Assembly (NCBI GenBank): GCA_963855995.1
Contig: OY979717.1
Location: 21,551,906 to 21,615,905, forward strand
Length of the DNA stretch: 64,000 nucleotides
Reading direction: 5' to 3'
Source of the DNA: Muricea muricata
Taxonomy: Eukaryota > Cnidaria > Anthozoa > Malacalcyonacea > Plexauridae
This document shows, one piece after another, positions 18,900 to 37,453 of the stretch. Position 1 is the stretch's first letter. The number at the start of each line of letters is the position of its first letter. The notes below the pieces were generated by a model. It was not told where the DNA came from. It did no database searches and saw only the letters and a list, made by a program, of their open reading frames with translations. A program made the position numbers and the translations under genes.

Positions 18900-21070
18900 T
18901 TAAAGGTTATTATTTTGATAATTGCATGCAAAAGGGTACAAAGTGTTGTTAGTACTATAGTATTTTAGGCGGTAGTTTAATAAAATATCAAGTCATATGT
19001 GTAATATATGATATACTTTAGTCGAGGATGCCCTGCAGAAATTATTCTCAACAGCAAAAAGTTCATAAATTGTGTAAATTAGCTGGATTTAGCTACTATT
19101 ATAAATTAAATTAATGAAACAAGTGATTCGAAATAACGTAATATATAATTATGTGGTTCGAAAAGCACATTAATCAACGAGTTTGTACAGTGTAATTCCT
19201 TAAATTTTTCAATATGCGAATTCACGTAGAAACCGCAATTACGGACAGCAATACACTGTGTTTTGCCATTCCTTACATAAACACGTACTGAACATTTTTC
19301 GTGCTTTGAGGTCGCTGTTTTGGACTTAAGAAATCTCCATATGTGTTGGACTGTAGTAAACCCTATACTCGAACATAAAACCCTATGAAAACCAATTGAC
19401 TGAAAAATAACAGCAAAACATTAAGCAGCAGAATTATATATACATGAAGCTATAAGTATAGCATTCGCGGCACCACCTGTATGTATATTTTGAAGTACAC
19501 CGGTCTCTCCTGTCGTTTTTTGAAACTTATATTGCTCCGTGCATACCTAATTGAAGAAAATTGGCGGATTTATAAGAGCACTTACGTATATTGGATTTTA
19601 ATAGAAACTATAGAGTCACTGGTTGTCATAACTCAGATTCAGATGCCCAGCCGGATCAGCTATTTTGCATTTAAAATTTACTTTTCTTGCTATTTTCATA
19701 TGTCATTTTGTGCCATTTTGCTAAAAACAGTTCATTAACGTTTAACAAATAAATTTGGGCACGAAAGTGGTTTTTCGACTTCAAACAGTGGTATAGTGCC
19801 AAAATTTAAATAAATTCAGACATACAGTGTGTCCAAAAAAGGCGGTGGAATGAATTGATGACAAGCAGCTACACATTGATATGTATATTTATAGAAGTAC
19901 TTCGTACATCGTATTTTCTTAATGCAACTACCACATGAAACTCTTTATTTGCTGAACGTTTAACGAATTCACTAGCCAACCATGCATGACTGGCATCTTG
20001 TTTGCATACAATACTGATGAAATTATTATCATCACAGATTTTGTAAAACTTTTTAAGTTTTAACTGGATTCACTCAGTTAAAACTGAAGGCAAATTATTA
20101 ATTATACCCGCATCAGGATTCCACTGTTGTTTTCCATCGACCGATTTTAAAGACTTACACATCTTTAAATACCGCTATACAATATGTGTACATTACCCTT
20201 GCAATCATACATTGCAAGACATACATTGAGAGCAAATAATAAAATCGGCAAAAAAATCAAATATATGTCACAGATAATAAAAGTCTGCGCAACACTCGTA
20301 ACTGTATATAGTCTCGTTAGTACTCTGCTACAAAATTGCCTTGCCAAGAATTTTAACAAACATGGTAACATATAGCATTACGAAAGAGGAAATTTCGCAA
20401 CATATAGTTTGCGAGGGGCGGGACTTTATTGTAGTAGAAGATAATCTTATCTGAAAACAGAAATTTTCCGAGTCTGCGACATATTTACCAATTAACCACT
20501 CAGGTCTGAAATGATAATTAATGGATAAATCGTCCACCTTTCAGTTAGACATAAAACTAGAGTCTACGTACAGAGGCTTGTAGGGTTGATTTTATCAAGA
20601 ACAAGACGCCTGCTAAGGCGTTCACTCCGCCTGCCAAACGAAAATGGGCACAAGGCCAGGCAGGGCTGTAACTAGAGCGTTCATTGGCGGTGGGGTATAT
20701 TCACTTATTTCTGTTCTGCCCAACTAATTCCTTTTTAAATCAATTATTATTAGGGTACCTTCCAAGGCATTTTAAGACATTGCTAGCACATCTTATGTAA
20801 TCACTAAGATAACCAAAAATCAATGTCTGAGTGACCTGCCAGGCACTCTGTCCAGAGTCCTAGTAGGATTGCAGTTTTTAGAATTTAATTTAAATTAAAG
20901 ACTTTCATAGTACATATGTTAAACAAGATTCTTTTGCCATAATACCACCAACATATAGCTGTTTTATTTTGCAAGTAAAGAAAATTTTACTATAAGTGTA
21001 TACAATACATCAATCTATTAAATCCATCAATTTATTAAATGTATTTTGTAGCACACTGCCTGAAGTCTCC
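18900..21070. other. Unassigned AT-rich stretch
   Basis: No exon of the FReD family, TIR pair or RNA gene was recognised. The frames at about 20165-20540 are hydrophobic or motif-free and look accidental. Confidence 0.4.
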
Positions 21071-21079
21071 ATGATATAA

Positions 21080-21600
21080 CTTGTTGGGAAAATGTTGGCT
21101 AGCCTTTTGATATATTGACAAGCTTTGAATTAAATATTTGATGTGTTGATAAGGTGTCAGGTAAATGTTTGGCATGTTTATAAAATGTTGGTAAGGATTT
21201 TGACTAGTTGACAAGTTTTCGACCAGACTTTTGACATGTTGATAAGATCTGAGTTAGTCTTTTGATATGTGGACAAGCTTTGAAATGGACTTTTGACATG
21301 TTGATATGCTCCTAGTTAGACTTTTGGCATGTTGACAAGATGTCAGTTAGGCTTTTTGCTTGTTGACAAGATGTCGGTTAGGCTTTTGGCTTGGTGACAA
21401 GATGTCGGTCAGGTTTTTGGCTTGTTGACAAGATGTCGGTAAGGCTTTTGGCTTGTTGACAAGATGTCGGTTAGACTTTGACCTGTACATGCCCACAAGT
21501 TGTCAGTTAGACTTTCGACATGCTGACAAAGTATTTACTTCCAGAAAGCTTCAGGTGTCAGTTAAAACATTGGTATATAGGCAGGGTGTCTGATAAAGTT
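21080..21600 (+). repeat. Minisatellite, unit about 31 bp, roughly 16 diverged copies
   Basis: The unit is ttaggcttttggcttgttga then caagatgtcgg. The best-conserved copies start at about 21315, 21346, 21377 and 21408 (31-bp steps). The outer copies vary (gacttttgacatgttgac..). Divergence rising toward both edges is typical of an expanding array. No long frame. Confidence 0.9.
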
Positions 21601-21609
21601 TTGGCAAAT

Positions 21610-23330
21610 TGAGAAAGTGCCAGTTGAAATTTTACTAAATTTAAGTTAGAATTTAAGTTAAATTTTGTTCCTTTTTTTATTTTGCATTTTTGAGTTTTTT
21701 TCTTGCTATATTAATAATTATAGCAACAGTCGTTACAGTAATCGACTTAAAAGTATTTCTGTGATCTGTATTTTCTGTCATATCCAATTTGAAATCCTTT
21801 CTCTGAGTCAACTATTCAACAACAAACATGTCAATTTTTTATAAAGAAAGTTATAAATACTATAGATAAAGACTAAAATGCCGCACTCAGCTATGACTGT
21901 TGACGTTCTGACAAAGCAAGCATTAAAATCGCTCATAAAAACAACAAAAATTAAAAAAATTACTAAGCTATTCTTAAGCTATTAAGTTTGAAGTCTGAAG
22001 TATCCACGATATAATTTGTTGGGAACTTTAGACTAACATAATATTATGTATTTCTGGAATTGGAATGTAAAATGTCTCTTACCTTTTATAATTACATGAG
22101 ATCCCACAAGCAAATAAATCATTTTGCACGAAATATTAGCATCTCAACATAGGTAGAAATAGAAAACCAAGGAAAGCAATCACAACGTGTTTAGAATTAG
22201 GAACACATTACACATTTCCTAGACTCATTCCTTAATCATGGAATGATGGAGTCTATCAGAATTTGCCGTTTTAAAACATTTCTGGAGCAATGTTTTGATA
22301 AAGAACCCTCCTGTCCCTTTTTGTTAACTATTACATGTTAAAAAAGTGCTTTGTATATAGATATTTCAGTAGAATTTGCGTTTGATTCTTGTGTAGAAAT
22401 TTCTAAATTTCCTTAAAAGTAGGAATAAACCAGAAAATGACGGAAACACGCTCTCAAAACTTCACCGCGACACATCGCTGGAATTTGTCGTTTTAAAACA
22501 TTTTGCATGAGAATCTTTGCACGTAAAACCTTCTTGGGGTTTAGATGTTCTAGCATACATGTTAAAATGCGTGTTTTGTTGACACATTTCGCTAGAAATT
22601 GAGTTTAAACGCCGTGTTTAGGTCGGCTCACGCGGTTTGTGCCAGCGGTATCACCCATGAGCGCTGCACCGACTTCTGACACCGAAAAAAAATAAAAAAA
22701 AAAAAAAACAGAAACGGGGCGAATTTAAAACTCCGCCTCGCCTACGGCAGGCGGAGTAATAAAAATGTTACAGAAACTTTAATTACAAGGCATACTTTTA
22801 GATTGATCTAGAATTTGAGAAACAATACCTAAATGACAGCCTAATTTTCTTTGTCTGTGGAGAATTATAACTATTTCTGGACTGACTCGCGGCAAATCGT
22901 TGTGATCCTTATTTATTCAAATCGGGCCTAATTTAGTGTGACAGCATGCCTTCCCCTATTGCGCCTTTGCGGCAATTGCTCATGTATTTGAAAAGTTTTA
23001 AAAACATTCATTCCTTATTATAATAGAAATATATCTTTGATATTCTAGCAATCAATGAATCTAAAATAGTATATCCGATGGTAAAAATCATGTAATAGGA
23101 CATGTTTTAATTCGAAATGATCGTAACAGATTTGTGGGTGCGGTTCTATGCGTTCGTCATGACATATTTGTCATTGTCGTTAAGAAACTGTTAGCCGCCA
23201 GACAAAGTCTAAATATTTTTGCGACAAAATTCAAAATTGTTCACACTCTAAAGATGTTGCATGGTCTTTAATAAATACAAATTTGGCTGAAAACAAAAAC
23301 TGAGTAATTTAACTTACTATATCTATGATA
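21610..23330. other. Unassigned stretch with an A-rich run
   Basis: No coding motif found. An A-rich run at about 22684-22709 follows GC-richer sequence (22620-22680), and a palindrome ccgcctcgcctacggcaggcgg lies at about 22734-22756. This may be the 3' end of an old SINE or LINE but is not assignable. Confidence 0.35.
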
Positions 23331-23619: not shown

Positions 23620-25015
23620 GATATGTCCCTCAACATATATATCCCGTCGAAAGTATACAAGGCGGCTGGCCCAGCTCTCATTGAGAAACTGCATGTCTTC
23701 TCTACGCGAATCTGGAACGAGGGAGTAATTTCCGACGATCTCCGCGAGGCTCTGATTGTCACCAGTTGTAAGAGGCTCAGATTGTCAGGTGGTAAGTCTA
23801 ATTGTGAAAACTATATATAGAGGTATATCCCTGCTTTCTACTGCTGGGAAGATCATTGCTCAAATCCTTGCGTTGCATCTCTTCCCCATTGCTAGAGAGG
23901 CCCTTCCTGAATCTCAGTGTGGTTTTAGACATAATATTCTCAGCACGACGGATTGAGGAAAAGTGCAGGGAACAGCATAAAGACTTTTACATTGCTTTCA
24001 TTGATCCTACTGAAGCATTTGACTCCGTACATCGGCCAACACTGTGCAAAATGCTCTCTGAAATCGGATGTCTGGACAAACATATAGGAATTTTACGACT
24101 GTTGCGCAAGAGCATGTGTGCATCGGTACTTATTGATGGCGAGTCTACTGAAAGTTTTGAAGAGAAGACTGGAGCAAATGCATCATAGCCCCAACACTCT
24201 TCTTGATTTTCATCTCTGGTATTTCACCTCGTAGCATAAATACAGAGTTTAGGATAGAGGGCAAGCTGTTCATCTTACGGTGATTAATAAAGGCAAAGAC
24301 GTTAACCACTCACATGGCTATACTCGAGTTGCAAGAGCTTGATGACAATGCCCTAGTTACCTACAGAGGAAGACCTTCAAGCAGCTGCTTTTAAAAGGCT
24401 TCAGTTATGCCTATGATGCGCTATGCCTCACACTAAATGCTCGGAAGACACAAGTTCTTTTCCAACCATCACCTGATTACACACACGAGCGAAAACAGCC
24501 GGATATCACAGTTGGAGACCAATTCCGTAGCTCTGTAGATGATTTACATAATTTTGGAACTTGCCTGTCAAGCAAGGCATACCTGCATAGATATTGAAAT
24601 TCAAGCCCGTCTAAAAGCAGTGGAAGAACAGAAACATCCACACTAACACCAAGATAGAGGAATAAAACCCATAATATTACGAACCCTGCTGTATGTCTCA
24701 GAAGCTTGGACAACCTACAGCCGCCATCTATAAAGTCTTGAGAGGTATCATCAGCGCTGTCTTTCTGTATTCTCCACATCAAGCAAGACAGGCGAACGAA
24801 CAGCAGTGTTTTAGAAGAGGCTAATGTCACTAGTATAGAGTCTTATATTACCATGAATCAGCTCCATCGGGCCGCCATCTCGTCCGTATGCCTTCATCGA
24901 GACTCCCAAAAAAGATCCTGTATGGCGAACTGACCAATGCGAGTCGTAAACGAGGTGACCAGTGAAAACGCTTAAAAAAAGCCTTACGCACAGCCTAAAG
25001 CAGTGCTGTATCAAC
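23620..25015 (+). pseudogene. LINE reverse transcriptase, degenerate, RT to C-terminus
   Basis: The reading moves through several frames. 23755-23955: CENYIRGISLLSTAGKIIAQ (RT motif, with a stop at its centre), then LPESQCGFRHN. 23940-24185: EKCREQHKDFYIAFIDPTEAFDSVHRP, the catalytic palm region with F(I/V)D...AFD (first aspartate present). 24650-24990: LRTLLYVSEAWTTYSRHL, LERYHQRCLSVF and LYGELTNASRKRGDQ, the usual C-terminal part. At least four stops or shifts make it dead. The YADD box region (about 24300) is too decayed to read. The order and motifs fit a jockey/CR1-clade or related LINE. It meets the minus-strand LINE at about 25015. Confidence 0.75.
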
Positions 25016-26300
25016 TCTGCTTCCGTGTTAGGTTGGTCTCTGCTGAAGATTGACGTGAAGTAGGAGTTGAAGAAAGATGCGACGGCTTCTAGCGATTCTG
25101 CGCAGATTTCAATTTGAACAAAAACCAAAAACGCTTCGGGTTACTACTGCAATCTACACAAGCATTACACAGACTGTCGCACAACATTTTTTTGATGGCA
25201 AATCTGCGTTCTTTGATTTTCGTTGCAAGGTGTTCTTTTGGTGATTTGGATTTTTTAAGCTTACGACGTACAAAACTTTTCTTTTTGATGTGTTTATCCA
25301 AGGCACATAATTTCGAATTCGTACGTTTGTAGATGGAATGTTGCGTAACAATGTGTCTAGAAAATATTTTTCCAATTTGACCGATCGTTTTTTATGTCAC
25401 CCTCAGTAGAGATACTCCCAGGAAGGTTGAAGATTCTAGAGCTGATCGTAGAGCAGTAAAGTCTTCTCGGCGGTAGTCGTATACAGTTTTCTGCATGTTT
25501 AGTAGACGCTTGGGATGATGTACGGGGCTGAAGTTGATGACGTTGTGGTCGGAGACCAAACTTCGCATATATAAACCAGGTTCAGGGGGACCAGACTTCG
25601 AATATTTAAACTGGGTCCGGGGTGTTCGTAATAACGAGGTCGAGGATATCGTCTTTTCTGGGCGCTGTGTTGATAAATTGAACGAAAATAGTCATGGAGA
25701 AGTTCGATGAAGCTAGTATCAATGACCCCTTAGCCGTTTCCGGCAAGTTCCATGGAATCTGTGGTAGATTAAAATCGCCTGCGAGTATATATTTGCTTTG
25801 TTCGAGCAAACACTCCTGAGAACGTTACTGAATCTTTCCAGCCATGTCTAATCATTATTTGGTGGACGATAACATGAAGCAACAAGTCGTTAGTTTAGCT
25901 CACGAAGAAGATGACTTTACGGCCAACTTGGCGGGCCAACAGTTCTTCGCCGCCCCGAGATTTCCTGTCTTTCCTGAATATAGAGTGCAAGATTTCAATG
26001 TCACCCCCTCAACTAGGTTTCGTTAACACAGACAATGTCACTGTTCTTAGTGTAAACTAAATTTTAAAAGCGCTCCAAATTACTACAATTTCCTTCGCAG
26101 TTGTTTATACCGTGTACGCTTAATAAACTTCTAGCAATAAGTGCAAGACATTTCACTGTTCGGTGTTTTGATGAAGAAAAAACAGGACCTGGATTTGTCG
26201 TCACATCGCCAGCCAGTAGAATACATAAAGTAACATGAAGTCGCGTACGATTTGTTTGCCGATTAAGTCCGTAACGATGAATGCGTGGGCAGTTCACTTT
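25015..26300 (-). pseudogene. CR1-like LINE, 5' half (endonuclease and linker), truncated
   Basis: Minus strand. 26297-26064 reads TLCILLAGDVTTNPGP and CLALIARSLLSVHGIN, the conserved start of CR1-like ORF2 (LLL.GDV..NPGP....L..NARS). 25809-25606 reads KYILAGDFNLPQIPW ... LDLVITNTP, from the apurinic endonuclease domain with GDFN. 25375-25030 reads CNACVDCSSNPKRFWFLFKL then VASFFNSYFTSIFSRDQPNT, the linker before RT. Frameshifts separate these parts. The RT is absent: at about 25015 the sequence changes to the end of the plus-strand LINE. Confidence 0.75.
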
Positions 26301-26814
26301 TCGTTGCCTGAAACCCCAAGTAGAGGTCCAGACATAGCATACATTTTCTGGAAGGCATACAAGTTCACAGTTTACAACAAAGCCATTTAAACTGCTTTTT
26401 ATGAGAAAGATTATGTCTTGGCTTTTAAGGTTTAAACACAGCCAGAGAATGTCACGATTAGCATAAAACTTTTCAATCCATTTGTTGTTAAGTCAAAAAT
26501 CCCGTAATCTTGAAAAAGGTTCCAGGCGAATTTCTTGCGCTTCCTTCAATGAATTAGCGTCTTTTTTTAAAGTATTTTTGTTATTGGATATGTCAATTAG
26601 CTGTGAAGATACGGGCAAGCGAAAGCTTTGTATGATTGTCCTTGTGTCTTTGAAGATTGCGACTGAACCGGTCAACAACTTTTTGAGGAATAAACTGAAA
26701 CCTATTTTGTTTTGAGGTGACGTTTGTCACAGTTTTCGGAAAAGTCACGACAATAGGGCAGAAAATGCATTGTATTTGACATTACAGAGGCTCAATGCTT
26801 TTTAATGTTTGCAG

Positions 26815-27244
26815 AATATCGCAACCAATGATCTGGCAACCTCGGAGATCGAGCAGTCATTGTCAAATGCACTCAGTTTCGGTCAATCGCAACTAGGCGA
26901 GTTTGTTAAAGATATACTTGTTCGCAATCCGGAAAGATAGCCCAAAAACAATGTTCCGTTCTAAGAACAGGCCCTTTACGTTTGCAAGCCTCTACGAAGT
27001 TAGTAGAGGAAATTCATCAACGGAAAAAAATAAAATTTGACTGCTGATAGAAATGTTATCTACCGACTGATTACCGCGTATGTAGCAGGTCGCGAAGTTA
27101 ATATGCAGGATATCCTGAAGCACGGGCTCATGTCTGTTCCAGTTTCTATTGCTGAAACCGATCAAACATTACGATCTGGAAACAACTCTCATGTGCATGC
27201 AGAAGCCCTGTACCTTTATCTTTCGCAGTACATAATAACTACAT
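26815..27244 (+). pseudogene. Cnidarian multicopy family protein, N-terminal exon, broken
   Basis: The acceptor atgtttgcag lies at 26814. The exon reads NIATNDLATSEIEQSLSNAL, GEFVKDILVRNPER then a stop; after a shift come SKNRPFTFASLYEV and DRNVIYRLITAYVAGREVNM. The donor is acat|GTAAGTAG at 27245, leaving one base. From memory this matches a protein family present in many copies in coral and anemone genomes (..GQ..L..FV..RL.......F..L...K....F..L......DR.LF.RLL......R.......L..EL..VP). In family members it is followed by DG.AL.....KP, and the next matching exon is at 31172. Function unknown; copy number suggests a mobile or host-adopted element. Confidence 0.55.
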
Positions 27245-27360
27245 GTAAGTAGGTTTTTTGTAGTAGAGTCTTAAAACAACAAACGTAAAGGCTTTCGTAT
27301 TTATAACATGGCTGCCATAAGTGTACTTTGAATATTGACATTTTCCTGTGTTTAAAATAG

Positions 27361-27852
27361 CCCGGTCTGTGGCAAATGTTTAATACATCCCTTGTTCGTT
27401 TTGTACCTATTTTGTTCAACTCCAGCCACTGTAGTGCATATAGTTAACAGTCAATAGTCTTCAAGAAGGTATCCACCGAATAGGATAGATATTCAGCGAT
27501 AAAAACGACGTCTAAGATGAAAAAAGTAGTGTAATACACAACTTCATGTTGCCAACTGATGTCAGTGGCGTCACGAAGAATTACAAATTGGTGCTTCAAT
27601 ATCGACATTTTATGTATTAAATAACGTACGTATTTCGCTTAAATCGATATGGGTGTAACTTTGAAGATCTTTTCCCTCGATAAGCTTAATAAACCATGTA
27701 TTAATTGTGGTAGAGTCGAAAAATATTGTTATAAATAGACACAAGTGTTACTCGTTCACTTTGTCGTTCTTGTTTCTTTGTCGATTTCAGAACTCGTAAA
27801 ATTGACCAATCACAGCGAAGCACAAAAGTTCTAAACATTTGCCACAGACCAG
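27361..27852. mobile_element. 492-bp TIR element with 5-bp TSD (AATAG)
   Basis: The left end is cccggtctgtggcaaatgtt and the right end aacatttgccacagaccag; TIRs are about 21 bp with one mismatch. AATAG stands at 27356-27360 and 27853-27857. The interior is AT-rich and non-coding. It lies in the same large intron as the Harbinger element. Confidence 0.65.
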
Positions 27853-28031
27853 AATAGCATAGATAATGCTTTTAAGAGCTGAAAATAGCATAATAATTAG
27901 ATTTGCTTTTAAAATTGCACAACACTGTGCAACACTGTAAAACTTTAAAATCAGTTGCAATTTAAGCATTTTTTTGTTTGTCTATTTTTTTCTGATCTTA
28001 TTCTTCTGTTCGTATATTTCATTAGGTCACT

Positions 28032-29343
28032 ATGTTTCCTGTCGTGCAAAACGATATCAATTTGGCCAAAGAGGTCGTAGCAAATAACCCTGAATAGCCG
28101 TGTGATAGGTGTGCCATTGCGATTGGTCTTCAAAGCTTGTTTTCTAGAACAGTTGGCAAGCCAGTGGAGATAAAGTGGAGGATCGAGCTGTCGAGAGCGT
28201 ATGGAAAGATTACTGAAGTGTATAAGGATGATGATGCTGCGGCTTTGAAACAGTGAAACGGTATGAATAGTACTTTTATGCCCAACTACTGCCATTGAAA
28301 TTACTGCCACTTACATTTAAGCATGATGCATGATCTATCTCAAATGAGACAAACTTGATTTTGTTGCGATATCACTAAAATGTAGCTACTTGGATATTTC
28401 TTTTGTGCATTAAAAATCTGGACATGTCATTCTTATATTTTATCTGAAAGCTCTGGCACTGAAGAAGAGTATACAGAGCTTCATAGGCTTCTTGAAGACA
28501 TTTTAACATATTGGAGAGATGTAGCAGAAATGAGAGAATAGAAAAAGAGGCAAAGAGGTTGAAAGAAGAGCAAGATAAGAAAATAGAGGAGCAGATGAGG
28601 CTACAAGGAATGAATAGTTAATGTATAATGTATGTATTAAAATATACTCAATGCCCCCAAGCAATTTATATATTAATAAATTCCATCACAGCTTAAATGA
28701 TAACTTGATGTGTTAGTTTAATGAGTCAGATTTATTTGTGCCACACAGAGTTAAAGAATTCTTGTTTATTTTTCATTTCTTGCTTTATTGAAGAGCAAAG
28801 TTCAGATGAACCAAAAAGCTCATCAAGTAGTGATGGAAATTGTGATGTTGTACAGCATACGAAAAGCGAAGTTAAAATGTTCTACTCGATTAAGCTTCAT
28901 ATGAATATTTTTTAGTTGATATCCTCCCTTAGAGATTATAGTTTTTATATGTTTCCCTAAACCAGGAGTATGCCTGTGAACCTATTTTGAGTATTCTCAT
29001 ACATAAAATTTTTGAATTGGCCGGGCACTCCTCCATAACTGTGACAAGAGCTCACATGGGTAAAACACTAGTGTGGCTCTAAACTAGGCCATTTCTTTGA
29101 ATTAATTTGCTCAGGAAAAAAGGCAAGAAAAAGGGCAAGCAAATTGTCTGCAGTGGAAATGTTAAATCAAAAATATGAAAGAAAAATTGAGTTGAAGGAT
29201 AAAGAGTTGGAAATCAAAAAAATGGAAATAGAATTACAGAAAAGAAAATTTGAAGAAGAATCAGAGGAAAGAAAATTCGATTTAAAATGGAAATGGATGA
29301 AAGAAAACTCAAACTGCGAAATAAGATGCAAAACTAAGAAGTA
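28032..29343 (+). pseudogene. Harbinger Myb/SANT-like DNA-binding protein
   Basis: Exon-like blocks in order: 28032-28250 (FPVVQNDINLAKEVVANNPE, stop where a Trp-rich motif usually follows, then AIAIGLQSLFSRTVGKPVEI); 28445-28622 (SGTEEEYTELHRLLEDILTY, one frameshift, ERIEKEAKRLKEEQDKKIEE); 28795-28905 (acidic and Ser-rich, SSDEPKSSSSSD); 29117-29343 (basic RKRASKLSAVEMLNQKYERK, then a Lys/Glu coiled coil ending in a stop). A helical Myb/SANT-like domain, then KR.G.EEEY.EL..LL.D, then basic and coiled-coil parts is the known layout of the Harbinger accessory protein, which escorts the transposase to the nucleus and binds the ends. The convergent transposase neighbour supports this. It carries a stop and a shift. 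Confidence 0.7.
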
Positions 29344-29429
29344 GTTTATTAACTCGACTATTTGAACAATTTCAGAATTTTACTTATATTCTTTTCAAAT
29401 GCTCTTACAAACAATATAAGTTAAGAGTT

Positions 29430-30923
29430 TCACTCGTTCATTAAACATGTTTCAAGAGATGGTGGATCCACTTCAAAAAATGTGCTTGTAAGGGATCCAT
29501 ACAAACATGTGTGGCAATTGGTCATCAGAGCTCCAACTGCATAGTATTTAGCTACAGGTTGTAAGAGAACTTTCAAAATTTTTTTGAAATCTAAAAAAGC
29601 AAAATATTGGCAAATTTTGCCAAAGCCCCACTCCACACTGACACGAACTTTTCTCATCGCTCTATTGAATCTCTTCTCATCTTCTGTCAAATCAGTTCCT
29701 CGAAAAAGGAGCCAGAATATTTCTGTTGAGGCCATAGGCAGAGTGGAACACAACGAAAACATCACCATTTACATCTTCTAGTTGTTGAAATTTTTCGCAA
29801 ATACCACTTACAGCGTGCATGAAACACCATACCTTCTTCCCTCGATAAGGCGGTACAAATGGGCGATAAGTCTATTAGGTGCATGGATTGACTATAAAGA
29901 AACAAAGGTTTATTACATACTACAATGTACCACAAAGTGCAATTTAATTGTAGCATGGACCACATGGAATTTTATGCAGTGCAGTCTTTTATAGCCACTG
30001 TACATTATCCTTTGTTGGTCTCACAGTCCCATCAATAAAACCCCAACATCTGTCGAGAGGAGCACTTTTGGCGTAAATTACATCCGCAAAACGGTCAAGA
30101 TGTAGCCAGACTAAGTTTAAAGATTCTAGTAAATGTTTGTACTGATCATAAATATCATTTACAATTAAAAAATAGAATATAAGTGGATATTTTCCGACTA
30201 TTCAAATGATTGATGAAAAAAGGAAGTGAAGCAAAGGAAACTAACTAACCATGTTGAAAATGAGACTTACTTCAGACTCATTTCTCCCGAAAAATGAAAC
30301 TACATCCCACCACCAGTTAGGATGCGCCAACCATTTAACATTATCATCAGTGTTTCAGGCCCGTCGCTAGTGTTCCTTGTATACATGTGTACTTGTCAGG
30401 TAAACACAACCCCCTACTAAGGCGTTCTAGGTCATTTTTTCGAAACTTGCAAAATTAAAGGCATTCTTTACGCATTAACGAACCAATATCTTTTAGATAA
30501 AGAAAGAAAACTATGTGACTCCTGTTTAAAAAAAATTCGTTTCCTGAAAAAAGCGTTTAGTATATTCTAAAAACGTAAGTTCTAAGGTTACAATAAAGAA
30601 TTTCAGATGCCGTTCTGAGAGTAAAAAAACACATACAATTGTTTTGACAATTTAAGTATTCCAGAATTTACTCGGATGAAATTTTTCACAAACTCTGTGT
30701 TGTTTAGAGTACGAAAATCGATTCTACCTTGAGTTTCTTGCATGGTACAAAAAAGTGAATCCAAAAGTAAGAAATCAAGATAATCTTCATCTTCGCAACT
30801 TGAACTGCTTGAGCTGCTATCAGAACTATACATCATTATGACCAATATCTCATTAAAACCATATTTATAAAAGTCATTTATTTGTGTTATGTCCTTGTCG
30901 ACAAATACTAGTACTCGTTCCAA
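29430..30923 (-). pseudogene. Harbinger DDE transposase (HARBI1-like)
   Basis: Minus strand, two blocks. N-terminal, 30923-30603: acidic and Ser-rich (SSDSSSSSSSCEDEDYLDFL) then RIDFRTLNNTEFVKNF. DDE block, 30340-29430: CWGFIDGTVRPTKDNVQWL (the first catalytic Asp in FIDGT.RP), then GDVFVVFHSAYGLNRNI, then LTEDEKRFNRAMRKVRVSVEWGFGKI (the last catalytic Glu in VEW.FG) and FAFLDFKKILKVLLQPVAKY, YAVGALMTNCHTCLYG. These are diagnostic for PIF/Harbinger nucleases. Several in-frame stops and shifts in the middle block make it a pseudogene. It converges with its Myb-like partner, with about 90 bp between the two stops. Confidence 0.8.
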
Positions 30924-31171
30924 AAAAAGAATAAAACAAAAAAACTAGCTTGGAAACTAACCATTTTGCACTCGCCATATTAATTTCATATACTAAACAA
31001 ACTTTCTAATTATGGCAAGCTATTACAACTGCAAGTCGCGGTTCGCGGGAGAATTCGTGCAAAACTAAAAGCAATTATTTACTAAACCGCCAGCCGCAAA
31101 CGGCAAGCGGCAAACCGCAGTTTGCGGTTCGCGGGAAAATTCGTTAAGTGAAATCTAAAAGTCTCTAATAG

Positions 31172-31599
31172 ACGGATTCGCCTTGTTAGCAGCAATAAGC
31201 AAACCGGAGAAGGCAAAAACATTTAGTGACTTTTCAGATGTTTTTCTCAGCGCTGGTTTGAATAAAGGCGCGGCGTACAGACGCGTGGACATTGTGTTTG
31301 ATAAATACCGAGAGAAGTCTATCTTAACCTTAACTAAAACTCGACGGTCACAGGATGTGCGTACCATTCGAAAAGTAATCGAAAGCCGATTTATCCTAAT
31401 ATCCTTTTACCATCAAACTGAAAGATATTTCTTACACTTGTCGATAACAAAGCGGACTTATCTCGTTTCCTGTCAGAAGAGATGATCATGATGGCACCTC
31501 AAGACAAGGTTATTATTGTTTTTCGTGGATTCAAGGAAGAAGAGGAGGTACGTTGCTCGGATATGACTGTTGATGTTGATGCGCCGAAATCTAACTACG
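31172..31599 (+). pseudogene. Same cnidarian multicopy family, second exon, one frameshift
   Basis: Acceptor gtctctaatag at 31171; the exon enters with two bases, exactly completing the one-base exit of the exon ending at 27244, so the 3.9-kb intron is phase-consistent. It reads GFALLAAISKPEKAKTFSDF, GLNKGAAYRRVDIVFDKYRE and KTRRSQDVRTIRKVIESR, then after one shift DNKADLSRFLSEEMIMMAPQ and VIIVFRGFKEEEEVRCSDMT. The donor GTAAGT lies at 31600. The block G.YKR.DVVFD.Y...S.K....RR......R.I and NK..L..FL is shared by family members as I recall them. Function unknown. Confidence 0.6.
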
Positions 31600-31692
31600 A
31601 GTAAGTGAAGAAATTTAAAAACGAGCAGAAACATACTGTAGACTCTACAAGACGAACGTATCGTCTGTCGATTTAGCAAAAATTTTGCTCTC

Positions 31693-31878
31693 CTAAAGTT
31701 GGTACTCTAGAGAAACTCCTAACAAGCGACACCTTGAAGTATCACACGATGAGGGCCCACTATCAGGCAAATGGTGTGGCCAAAGCGCAAAATTGTGGGA
31801 AACTTATAGATGATAAGCTAGTGCCAGTCGTCATGACACTTGATGCTATCCCAAGGGCATGTGTGGAGATGATTACAT
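31693..31878 (+). pseudogene. Same family, third exon (..MRAHYQ.. ..ACVEMITC)
   Basis: It reads VGTLEKLLTSDTLKYHTMRA, then KLVPVVMTLDAIPRACVEMI and TC split before donor GTAAGTAC at 31879. Family relatives have LH.MRA.YQ...W and a P.AC.E...C.C stretch leading to a Cys-rich tail. The HEEADTR...(S)DTDV region usual between exon 2 and this one is missing (only about 90 bp separate them), so the copy has an internal deletion. Confidence 0.5.
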
Positions 31879-32059
31879 GTAAGTACCTACTGGTTCTGCA
31901 ACTCAGCTTCAGCGATATAACGTGGATCAGCTCTGTTGACATTATACAGACTTCTGTTCTAATCATGTGATTGATCACGTGACACTAACATCATTTGATA
32001 TAAATTCTAACTGGTTTATTTTGTTTTTATTTTAAAAATGCTAGATGCGTAACCAGGAT

Positions 32060-32221: not shown

Positions 32222-32454
32222 TAGAAGGGAAAAAATCGTCGCTAAGTTACGTCTATATCAACTACAGAAATATCCGAAAATATAATTATTGTAACAAGAA
32301 TCTGTATTGTTCTGGCAAATGTTTGGCATTGTACGTTATCTGCAGTGATGGTAATAGCAGTGTGCCATGATTCCAATGTTCCTCTGTGTCGAAAATTTGC
32401 CCGGTCAATGATTTTGCAATTGGCAAAATCATTGACGGGGCAATCTACGGACAC
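32222..32454 (-). pseudogene. Penelope-like element, GIY-YIG C-terminus, minus-strand copy
   Basis: It reads CPVNDFANCKIIDRANFRHR then GTLESWHTAITITAD and decays. The ....FDN..IID.(A/G)NFR.RKTLESWHTA phrase is the usual C-terminal end of Penelope-like elements after the GIY-YIG nuclease. 32222-32385 is the inverse of 32628-32787, so the two copies are head to head. Confidence 0.7.
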
Positions 32455-32462
32455 TCAACTAA

Positions 32463-32787
32463 ATGCTTCCGTCACCCAAAGACCGACCATCCGAAGAAAA
32501 ACAAACGAACGTTGTTTATCAAATTAATTGTGCTGATTGCTCATGGAAGTACATTGGAGAAACAGGCAGATCTTTACAAACAAGGAAGAAAGAACATATT
32601 AGAGACGTAAAAAAATGCAAAGTTGGACACAGAAGAACATTGGAATCATGGCACACTGCTATTACCATCAATGCAGATAATAATGCCAAACATTTGCCTG
32701 AACAATACAGATTCTTGTTACAATGATTACTGTCGGATATTTCTGTAGTTGACATAGACGTAACTTAGCGATGATTTTTCCCTTCTA
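32463..32787 (+). pseudogene. Penelope-like element, GIY-YIG endonuclease, plus-strand copy
   Basis: It reads RPSEEKQTNVVYQINCADCS, then WKYIGETGRSLQTRKKEHIR and HRRTLESWHTAITINADNNA. YIGETGRSL..R..EH is the GIY-YIG nuclease core of Penelope-like retroelements, with a preceding CxxC. Compared with the family, a block of about 25 residues between KKCK and TLESWHT is deleted; the minus copy still has it. No RT remains in this window. Confidence 0.8.
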
Positions 32788-36659: not shown

Positions 36660-37453
36660 AGCAATTGATTAAAATTGCACTATGCCAAACCGGCAAGAGT
36701 ATTTTGATTTGTGTCAAATTGCGTATCTTTGCACATCTTGTTCACTAAGATAAACTCTTCCAATACTTCGTAGAAATCTACACGATTTGGGGTATATTTA
36801 GCAACATTGAGTAAAGTTCTCTGACTTACTTTTGTGTCCAGATTAAAAAAATGTAAATGAGTTAGTTCTATGCTAGAATATAGTTTTGTGTATTATATTT
36901 TGACATTTCAACCATTGGTCTTCTAAGCCCTGTATAGGCTCTTACTCTGTCTAATACCAGATATTTTACTTGTTCAAATCTAGCAATACCCAACTGAAGT
37001 GTATACCTAACCAAATTAAACTTCAATTCTCCATTTGGTTAAGCTTTCATACCTAAAGGTAACATATTGGTTTTAGGAATCGAAGATCAATCACCATTCT
37101 TCTTAGTGCTTCTAATGCCTTCGAATTTTTATCTAGCACAGGCTTGTCTCTTTCATTCTCCACAAGAGGACATTGCCATCTTAAATAAGTATCGTTTCTT
37201 TTCACACAGCACAGTGGAAGAATTCCATGATCTAGCATGATCATTACTACATGTCCACAATATCTTCAGCCTTCAGTTTTCTTCAGTCTGCCCGCATATT
37301 GGCTTGAACATGTGTCATTCTGACAAACTTAGAGAGATGATAGTACCATATAGACGTCAACAACAGCACGTTCCTTATTGATACTCCATCTCAAAAGAGC
37401 GCTGTTCTTTCCAACACTTTTTATGACATCAAACATTAAAACACCTTCTCGAC

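Follow-up and report, generated by a model that had tools for sequence, protein, structure and literature searches.

Coding blocks of a repeated family in the Muricea muricata genome

What are the three coding blocks that lie between positions 26809 and 31880 of a 64,000-nucleotide stretch of the anthozoan Muricea muricata (contig OY979717.1, positions 21,551,906 to 21,615,905; this whole stretch is hereafter the window)? A sequence-only reading had joined them as exons, separated by two introns, of a broken member of a multicopy cnidarian protein family, which it thought could be an undescribed mobile or domesticated element. The genome from which the window comes (453 Mb, 74 contigs) was searched with the peptide of the second block, and the relatives found there were compared with the window. 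The blocks are very probably the decayed fragment of a long DNA transposon with terminal inverted repeats (TIRs), best placed in the AcademX lineage of the Academ superfamily, and the copy in the window is most likely an ordinary transposon fossil of a known kind, torn open later by other jumping elements.

Relatives in the genome

The family is indeed repeated: at least 27 matches at E ≤ 1e-3, the window and its own duplicate included, emerged from 60 scored candidates. The matches are spread over several contigs, a number of them within long open frames. We retrieved 20 stretches around matches, leaving out six further matches, and the block-2 peptide gave an orientation for 18 of these stretches. 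Single open frames of 1608 and 1499 codons are found in relatives L012 and L011 respectively, and shorter ones in L014 (875 codons), L016 (829), L015 (694) and L017 (659); the open frame of L013 enters unread bases. The best-preserved relative encodes one intronless protein of ~1600 amino acids, and the L012 protein is collinear with the other relatives, in pieces split by frame changes, stops and gaps.

Four relatives (L011, L012, L016 and L025) are ~98–99% identical (97.8–99.3% by piece) across an element of 7.2–7.8 kb and have different flanks, with L025 deviating over an inner stretch; L014 and L015 are ~94–96% identical to L011. Recent copies have diverged almost neutrally, as expected for transposon copies, with nonsynonymous (dN) and synonymous (dS) divergence of 0.025 and 0.023 for L022/L019 and of 0.007 and 0.012 for L012/L011. 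The right flanks of L014 and L015 are nearly shared past the TIR, and one of the two probably arose by duplication of the locus and not by a second insertion. No relative turned up in viral contigs, phages or prokaryote genomes, where the contig scans can pick up no more than close relatives and a long terminal repeat (LTR) or viral origin had no dedicated test; two matches of 24 and 13 residues in the prokaryote genome scan were taken as chance.

Element ends and target site duplications

Similarity between copies begins at the bases TAGAC in L011, L016 and L025, and within a few bases of them in L012 and L014, while its right edge lies at, or a few bases from, GTCTA. TAGAC...GTCTA TIRs with at least 12 of 16 terminal matches, together with a perfect 3-bp target site duplication (TSD), are present in 12 of 17 relatives (L011, L012, L014, L016, L019, L020, L021, L022, L023, L024, L025 and L028). 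Left out of this test were L026 and L030, unmatched by the block-2 peptide, and L027, the window's own duplicate. As a control, single-base shuffles of the flanks gave an expectation of 1.41 of 17 with the criterion relaxed to at least 8 of 16 matches. The distance between the TIRs is 4.7–7.8 kb, and the duplications vary by copy (e.g. ATA, AAA, AAG, TAG, CAA, ACA and CTT), as they must if the copies were inserted at different sites. The suspicion that the family might be mobile is thereby borne out, and its domestication finds no support, with copies on several contigs that have TIRs and TSDs of their own.

A nuclease-like domain fused to a putative transposase

The nuclease region of the relatives has a predicted PIN-like 5'-nuclease fold (Foldseek on a predicted structure), as the sequence-only reading had suspected, and its acidic motifs run in the order D – FD – EEAD – DTD – GCD. 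Counting the rows of our alignment A2 with letters at each motif, (I/V)DG is conserved in 11 of 11 and (V/L)FD in 13 of 13, EEAD is kept in 11 of 13 (the exceptions being L030 and the deletion edge of the window), DTD in 10 of 12 (exceptions L023, with DTE, and L030) and GCD in 8 of 11 (exceptions L019, with GCE, L023 and L029). Between lineages the region has a dN of 0.41 and a dS of 2.66, and by this sequence comparison appears to be under constraint.

Conserved D, D and E motifs are seen in the alignment of the other region of the protein, and we infer that this non-nuclease half of L012 is a transposase. A weak match to DUF6589, a family of 'unknown function', falls in the same transposase-side region (L012:1085-5911); our guess is that DUF6589 may be a (fungal) Academ-type transposase family. 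A literature search returned no paper on EEADTR, on DUF6589, or on an XPG nuclease with a transposon and transposase.

Catalysis and a division of labour between the two halves would take the following form. A DDE-type transposase half would recognize the TAGAC...GTCTA ends, excise the element and insert it where the target is cut with a 3-bp stagger. Trimming of 5' flaps or strand ends resulting from excision or integration would fall to the FEN/XPG-like 5'-nuclease half fused to it. The copy in the window has lost most of its acidic nuclease motifs by deletion, acquired frame changes and stops, been split by Harbinger and miniature inverted-repeat transposable element (MITE) material, and been duplicated ~107 kb away as part of a larger segment.

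Decay of the copy in the window

Homology of the window to a single family lies at 26809–27195, 31162–31601 and 31722–31880, collinear and all on the + strand (tblastn and tblastx; blocks translated in all + frames). With L012 as query against the 64-kb window, tblastn gave E values of 5.5e-9, 9.8e-11 and 0.002 for the three blocks in order, which correspond to L012 residues ~1047–1172, 1198–1270 and 1498–1568. The same three blocks are recovered by tblastx with 11 relatives, so that their assignment to one family stands. Pfam reports no family above its cut-offs for blocks 2 and 3. Detectable similarity starts at 26809, scattered tblastx pieces upstream of this position being taken as noise, and the transposase part was not found in the window by tblastn with L012.

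The first block (26809–27195) is a remnant of the linker between transposase and nuclease, matched in tblastx by L021, L023, L024, L012 and others, with frame changes near 26922–26927 and near 27019–27037 and one in-frame stop in 27019–27195. The first half of the nuclease-like domain follows at 31162–31389, where the motifs SLIDGFAL and RVDIVFDKYREKSI are recognized by tblastn, in A2 and in the motif columns; after a frame change near 31395 the domain continues at 31398–31601 with one in-frame stop (A2; 43–53% tblastx identity to L018–L023 and L028). This piece stops at the HEEADTR position, with just 'YE' left of that motif. Relatives have the EEADTR, RDTDV and GCDTTS motifs between the flanking blocks; in the window these are gone at a deletion junction (31602–31636), and a search of all six frames found no EADTR, DTDV or GCDT. 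The HEEADTR..DTDV motif that had been ascribed to the family is present in the relatives and absent from the window. Beyond the junction, a coding remnant at 31637–31690 (CRLYKTNVSSVDLAKILL) is aligned by tblastx to CKMYKLDLASVDEARVVL of relatives (L019, L022 and L028; 44% over 18 amino acids, collinear), and a C-terminal remnant ending ...EMITC occupies 31722–31880, with another frame change between the last pieces. Past 31880 we saw nothing of the cysteine-rich tail that the relatives carry.

We reject a gene model with two introns in view of pieces that read through in the relatives, of the coding match at 31637–31690 within the supposed second intron, and of the length of the linker. The L012 tblastn pieces span the position of the first supposed intron in 16 of 18 loci and that of the second in 8 of 18; at loci without a spanning piece they break or stop near the claimed position. 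Nor does splice phase help the model, since the conserved D in LIDG (31165–31176) would have its codon cut in two by an exon start at 31172.

The 3.9-kb insert is real, but most likely as one or more insertions within coding sequence (about 27246–31147) and not as an intron. TAA(GT) stands at both of its edges (27246–27250 and 31145–31149), and minus the insert the linker from GN to (L/I)IDG measures 82 nt (~27 codons) in the window and 27 residues in L021 and L024. Because the linker fits and TAAGT occurs at both edges, the Harbinger and MITE material most likely sits inside the coding sequence. The MITE-like unit noted beforehand lies at 27364–27850, with inverted ends at 27364–27403 and 27811–27850 that a repeat search found to be 75% complementary. 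A Harbinger transposase fragment (DDE_Tnp_4) is present on the − strand at 29433–29768, scoring 24.5 bits (Pfam, E 2.3e-5) against a cut-off of 24.8, and the adjacent frames are broken. Of the 'complete two-gene' Harbinger of the sequence-only reading, Pfam shows this one frame just below cut-off: a second frame has no Pfam match, other frames are interrupted by stops, and Pfam matches none of three more pieces, including the Harbinger partner-gene piece. Candidate Harbinger ends at 27904 and 31073, with ATT on each side, form a weak pair (11 of 14 matches).

Weighing the evidence

Several observations count against an Academ-type element with a 5'-nuclease. The Foldseek TM-scores are low (0.31–0.41 by query length for the 5'-nuclease rows among the first 13), rows at E above 0.02 are mixed with unrelated folds, and a single-sequence AlphaFold model was useless (predicted local distance difference test, pLDDT, 38.5). 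Neither the nuclease-region nor the transposase-region sequence profile matches a PDB chain at E ≤ 10, the nuclease profiles being shallow (effective number of sequences, Neff, about 2). Compared with five archaeal FEN1 proteins in hhalign, the nuclease region fell below several shuffles: the real score was 0.84, against 125 for the best of 40 column shuffles and 12 for the next, which makes this control unreliable, and the C-terminal half reached 11.9 where the best of 100 shuffles reached 19.5, though with its motifs in register (rows L029 and L030 were omitted from the former comparison, and L011, L028, L029, L030 and the window from the latter). Pfam finds no XPG match and no named transposase family in L012, its matches there being DUF6589 at E 1e-4, below cut-off, and two weaker ones at chance level. 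The TIR/TSD pair was not found in 5 of 17 relatives (L013, L015, L017, L018 and L029), and an end search without the TAGAC condition gives other pairs with similar or better scores at several loci; we accept TAGAC as the terminus because it recurs across divergent copies and fits the edges of similarity. The copy in the window is without termini, its sole TAGAC/GTCTA pair with matching flanks spanning 13.8 kb and agreeing at 7 of 16 positions, and the near-neutral divergence of recent copies shows no sign of current function.

The AcademX nuclease is of the XPG type. A passage of PMC10045372, which says 'nuclease', gives target duplications of 3 or 4 bp for AcademX and of 9 or 10 bp for AcademH, tied to the encoded nuclease or helicase. 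In the light of this passage, and of a coral genome paper (PMC12005156) with thousands of Academ-1 entries, it is doubtful that the element is undescribed. We file it under AcademX because of its 3-bp TSDs, fused FEN/XPG-fold nuclease and TIRs, that is, by described features and not by sequence comparison. This filing by description also weighs against Academ and, like termini that read TAGAC and the failure of Pfam and PDB to name either half, would suit a transposase–nuclease TIR transposon of another, perhaps unnamed, superfamily with 3-bp duplications. We consider such a superfamily quite unlikely, given that a nuclease with 3- or 4-bp TSDs matches AcademX as published in that passage, that a coral genome table in PMC12005156 has an Academ-1 row (4,662, 2,578 and 1,886, presumably copy numbers in three corals), and that Academ-1_NV is given as a family in a passage of PMC9004415.

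If the window held a broken member of an intron-bearing host (domesticated) nuclease gene family, this could explain why GTAAGT follows blocks 1, 2 and 3 and why the nuclease region seems constrained between lineages. Such a host family is very improbable and already largely refuted, as coding similarity in the relatives continues across the claimed introns, TIRs and TSDs flank 12 of 17 of them, coding similarity lies in the second 'intron', and flanks differ among near-identical copies. It has a small chance of being true that the fused domain is PIN/FEN-like in fold yet no active flap nuclease, acting instead as a DNA-end binding or dimerization module: fold alone shows no function and sequence-level similarity to catalytic FENs is absent, but most covering rows keep the acidic residues of five FEN-type motif positions and the region appears constrained. 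Also rather doubtful is a reading in which the TAGAC family forms a separate cut-and-paste lineage whose fused FEN/XRN-type 5'-nuclease sets the 3-bp stagger by 5'-end trimming at excision or integration. Were it true, these elements would bring along their own end-processing enzyme, for which other DDE transposons rely on the host, and the window would hold one old, independently evolved branch of the family.

Segmental duplication and neighbouring sequence

A second copy of much of the window between 19394 and 38606 lies ~107 kb further down this contig, as same-strand blocks of 92–99% identity, and its block-2 match is 100% identical. The second copy is without window positions ~20600–22760 and ~530 bp at 28196–28725, shows one small piece in a changed order, and contains ~5.9 kb extra at window ~31796–31808; inverted sequence near both ends of the extra piece marks it as a further insertion into this fossil.

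Other debris surrounds the fossil. A long inverted repeat at 32228–32782, with arms 91–96% complementary, encloses a GIY-YIG frame (Pfam E 8.1e-5) and is perhaps, at a guess, a Penelope-like piece. Upstream of the fossil, a weak RVT_1 match at 23808–24185 (E 0.0044, below cut-off) is consistent with debris of a long interspersed nuclear element (LINE), and a − strand frame at 26067–26492 without a Pfam match contains ...LLAGDVTTNPGP, which we take to resemble the 2A-type peptide of some non-LTR retrotransposons. The frame at 37427–37750 matches Pfam DUF7039 alone (E 0.21) and presumably resembles the RNase H end of Copia.

Significance and comparison with known systems

Reading the blocks as an Academ-type fossil takes one 'unknown cnidarian gene family' off the list of candidates, by identifying a repeated protein that had appeared to be unknown. 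Repeated frames of this kind most likely encode transposon proteins and are to be masked, not annotated as genes. The analysis also supplies fold evidence for a nuclease half that Pfam leaves unnamed; this evidence, together with near-identical copies with clean ends, makes the role of a 5'-nuclease within a transposase testable.

PIF/Harbinger elements resemble the DDE_Tnp_4-like fragment carried by the element inserted in the window, but this broken element is an intruder there and not the family studied. With the FEN1/XPG/EXO1/XRN 5'-nucleases of the PIN-like superfamily, the relatives share a predicted fold, and their motif order resembles the D – FD – ExE – DxD – GTD of FEN1; they differ in that their domain shares one protein with a transposase-like region and a tail rich in cysteine, shows no detectable sequence similarity and gives low TM-scores. 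AcademH belongs to the same superfamily by name, and DUF6589 matches L012 weakly, whereas the helicase and longer duplications of AcademH in the passage cited above contrast with the nuclease and 3 bp found here. The name Academ was given to the superfamily in 2010 (reference list of PMC4455052), and a passage of PMC10294476 gives a mean length of 5565 bp for bivalve Academ elements. The closest likeness, drawn by description, is to AcademX: the copy in the window lacks the transposase, most acidic motifs and the termini, but the family shares with AcademX a nuclease encoded with the transposase, 3-bp duplications, TIRs and a long element, here of 4.7–7.8 kb.
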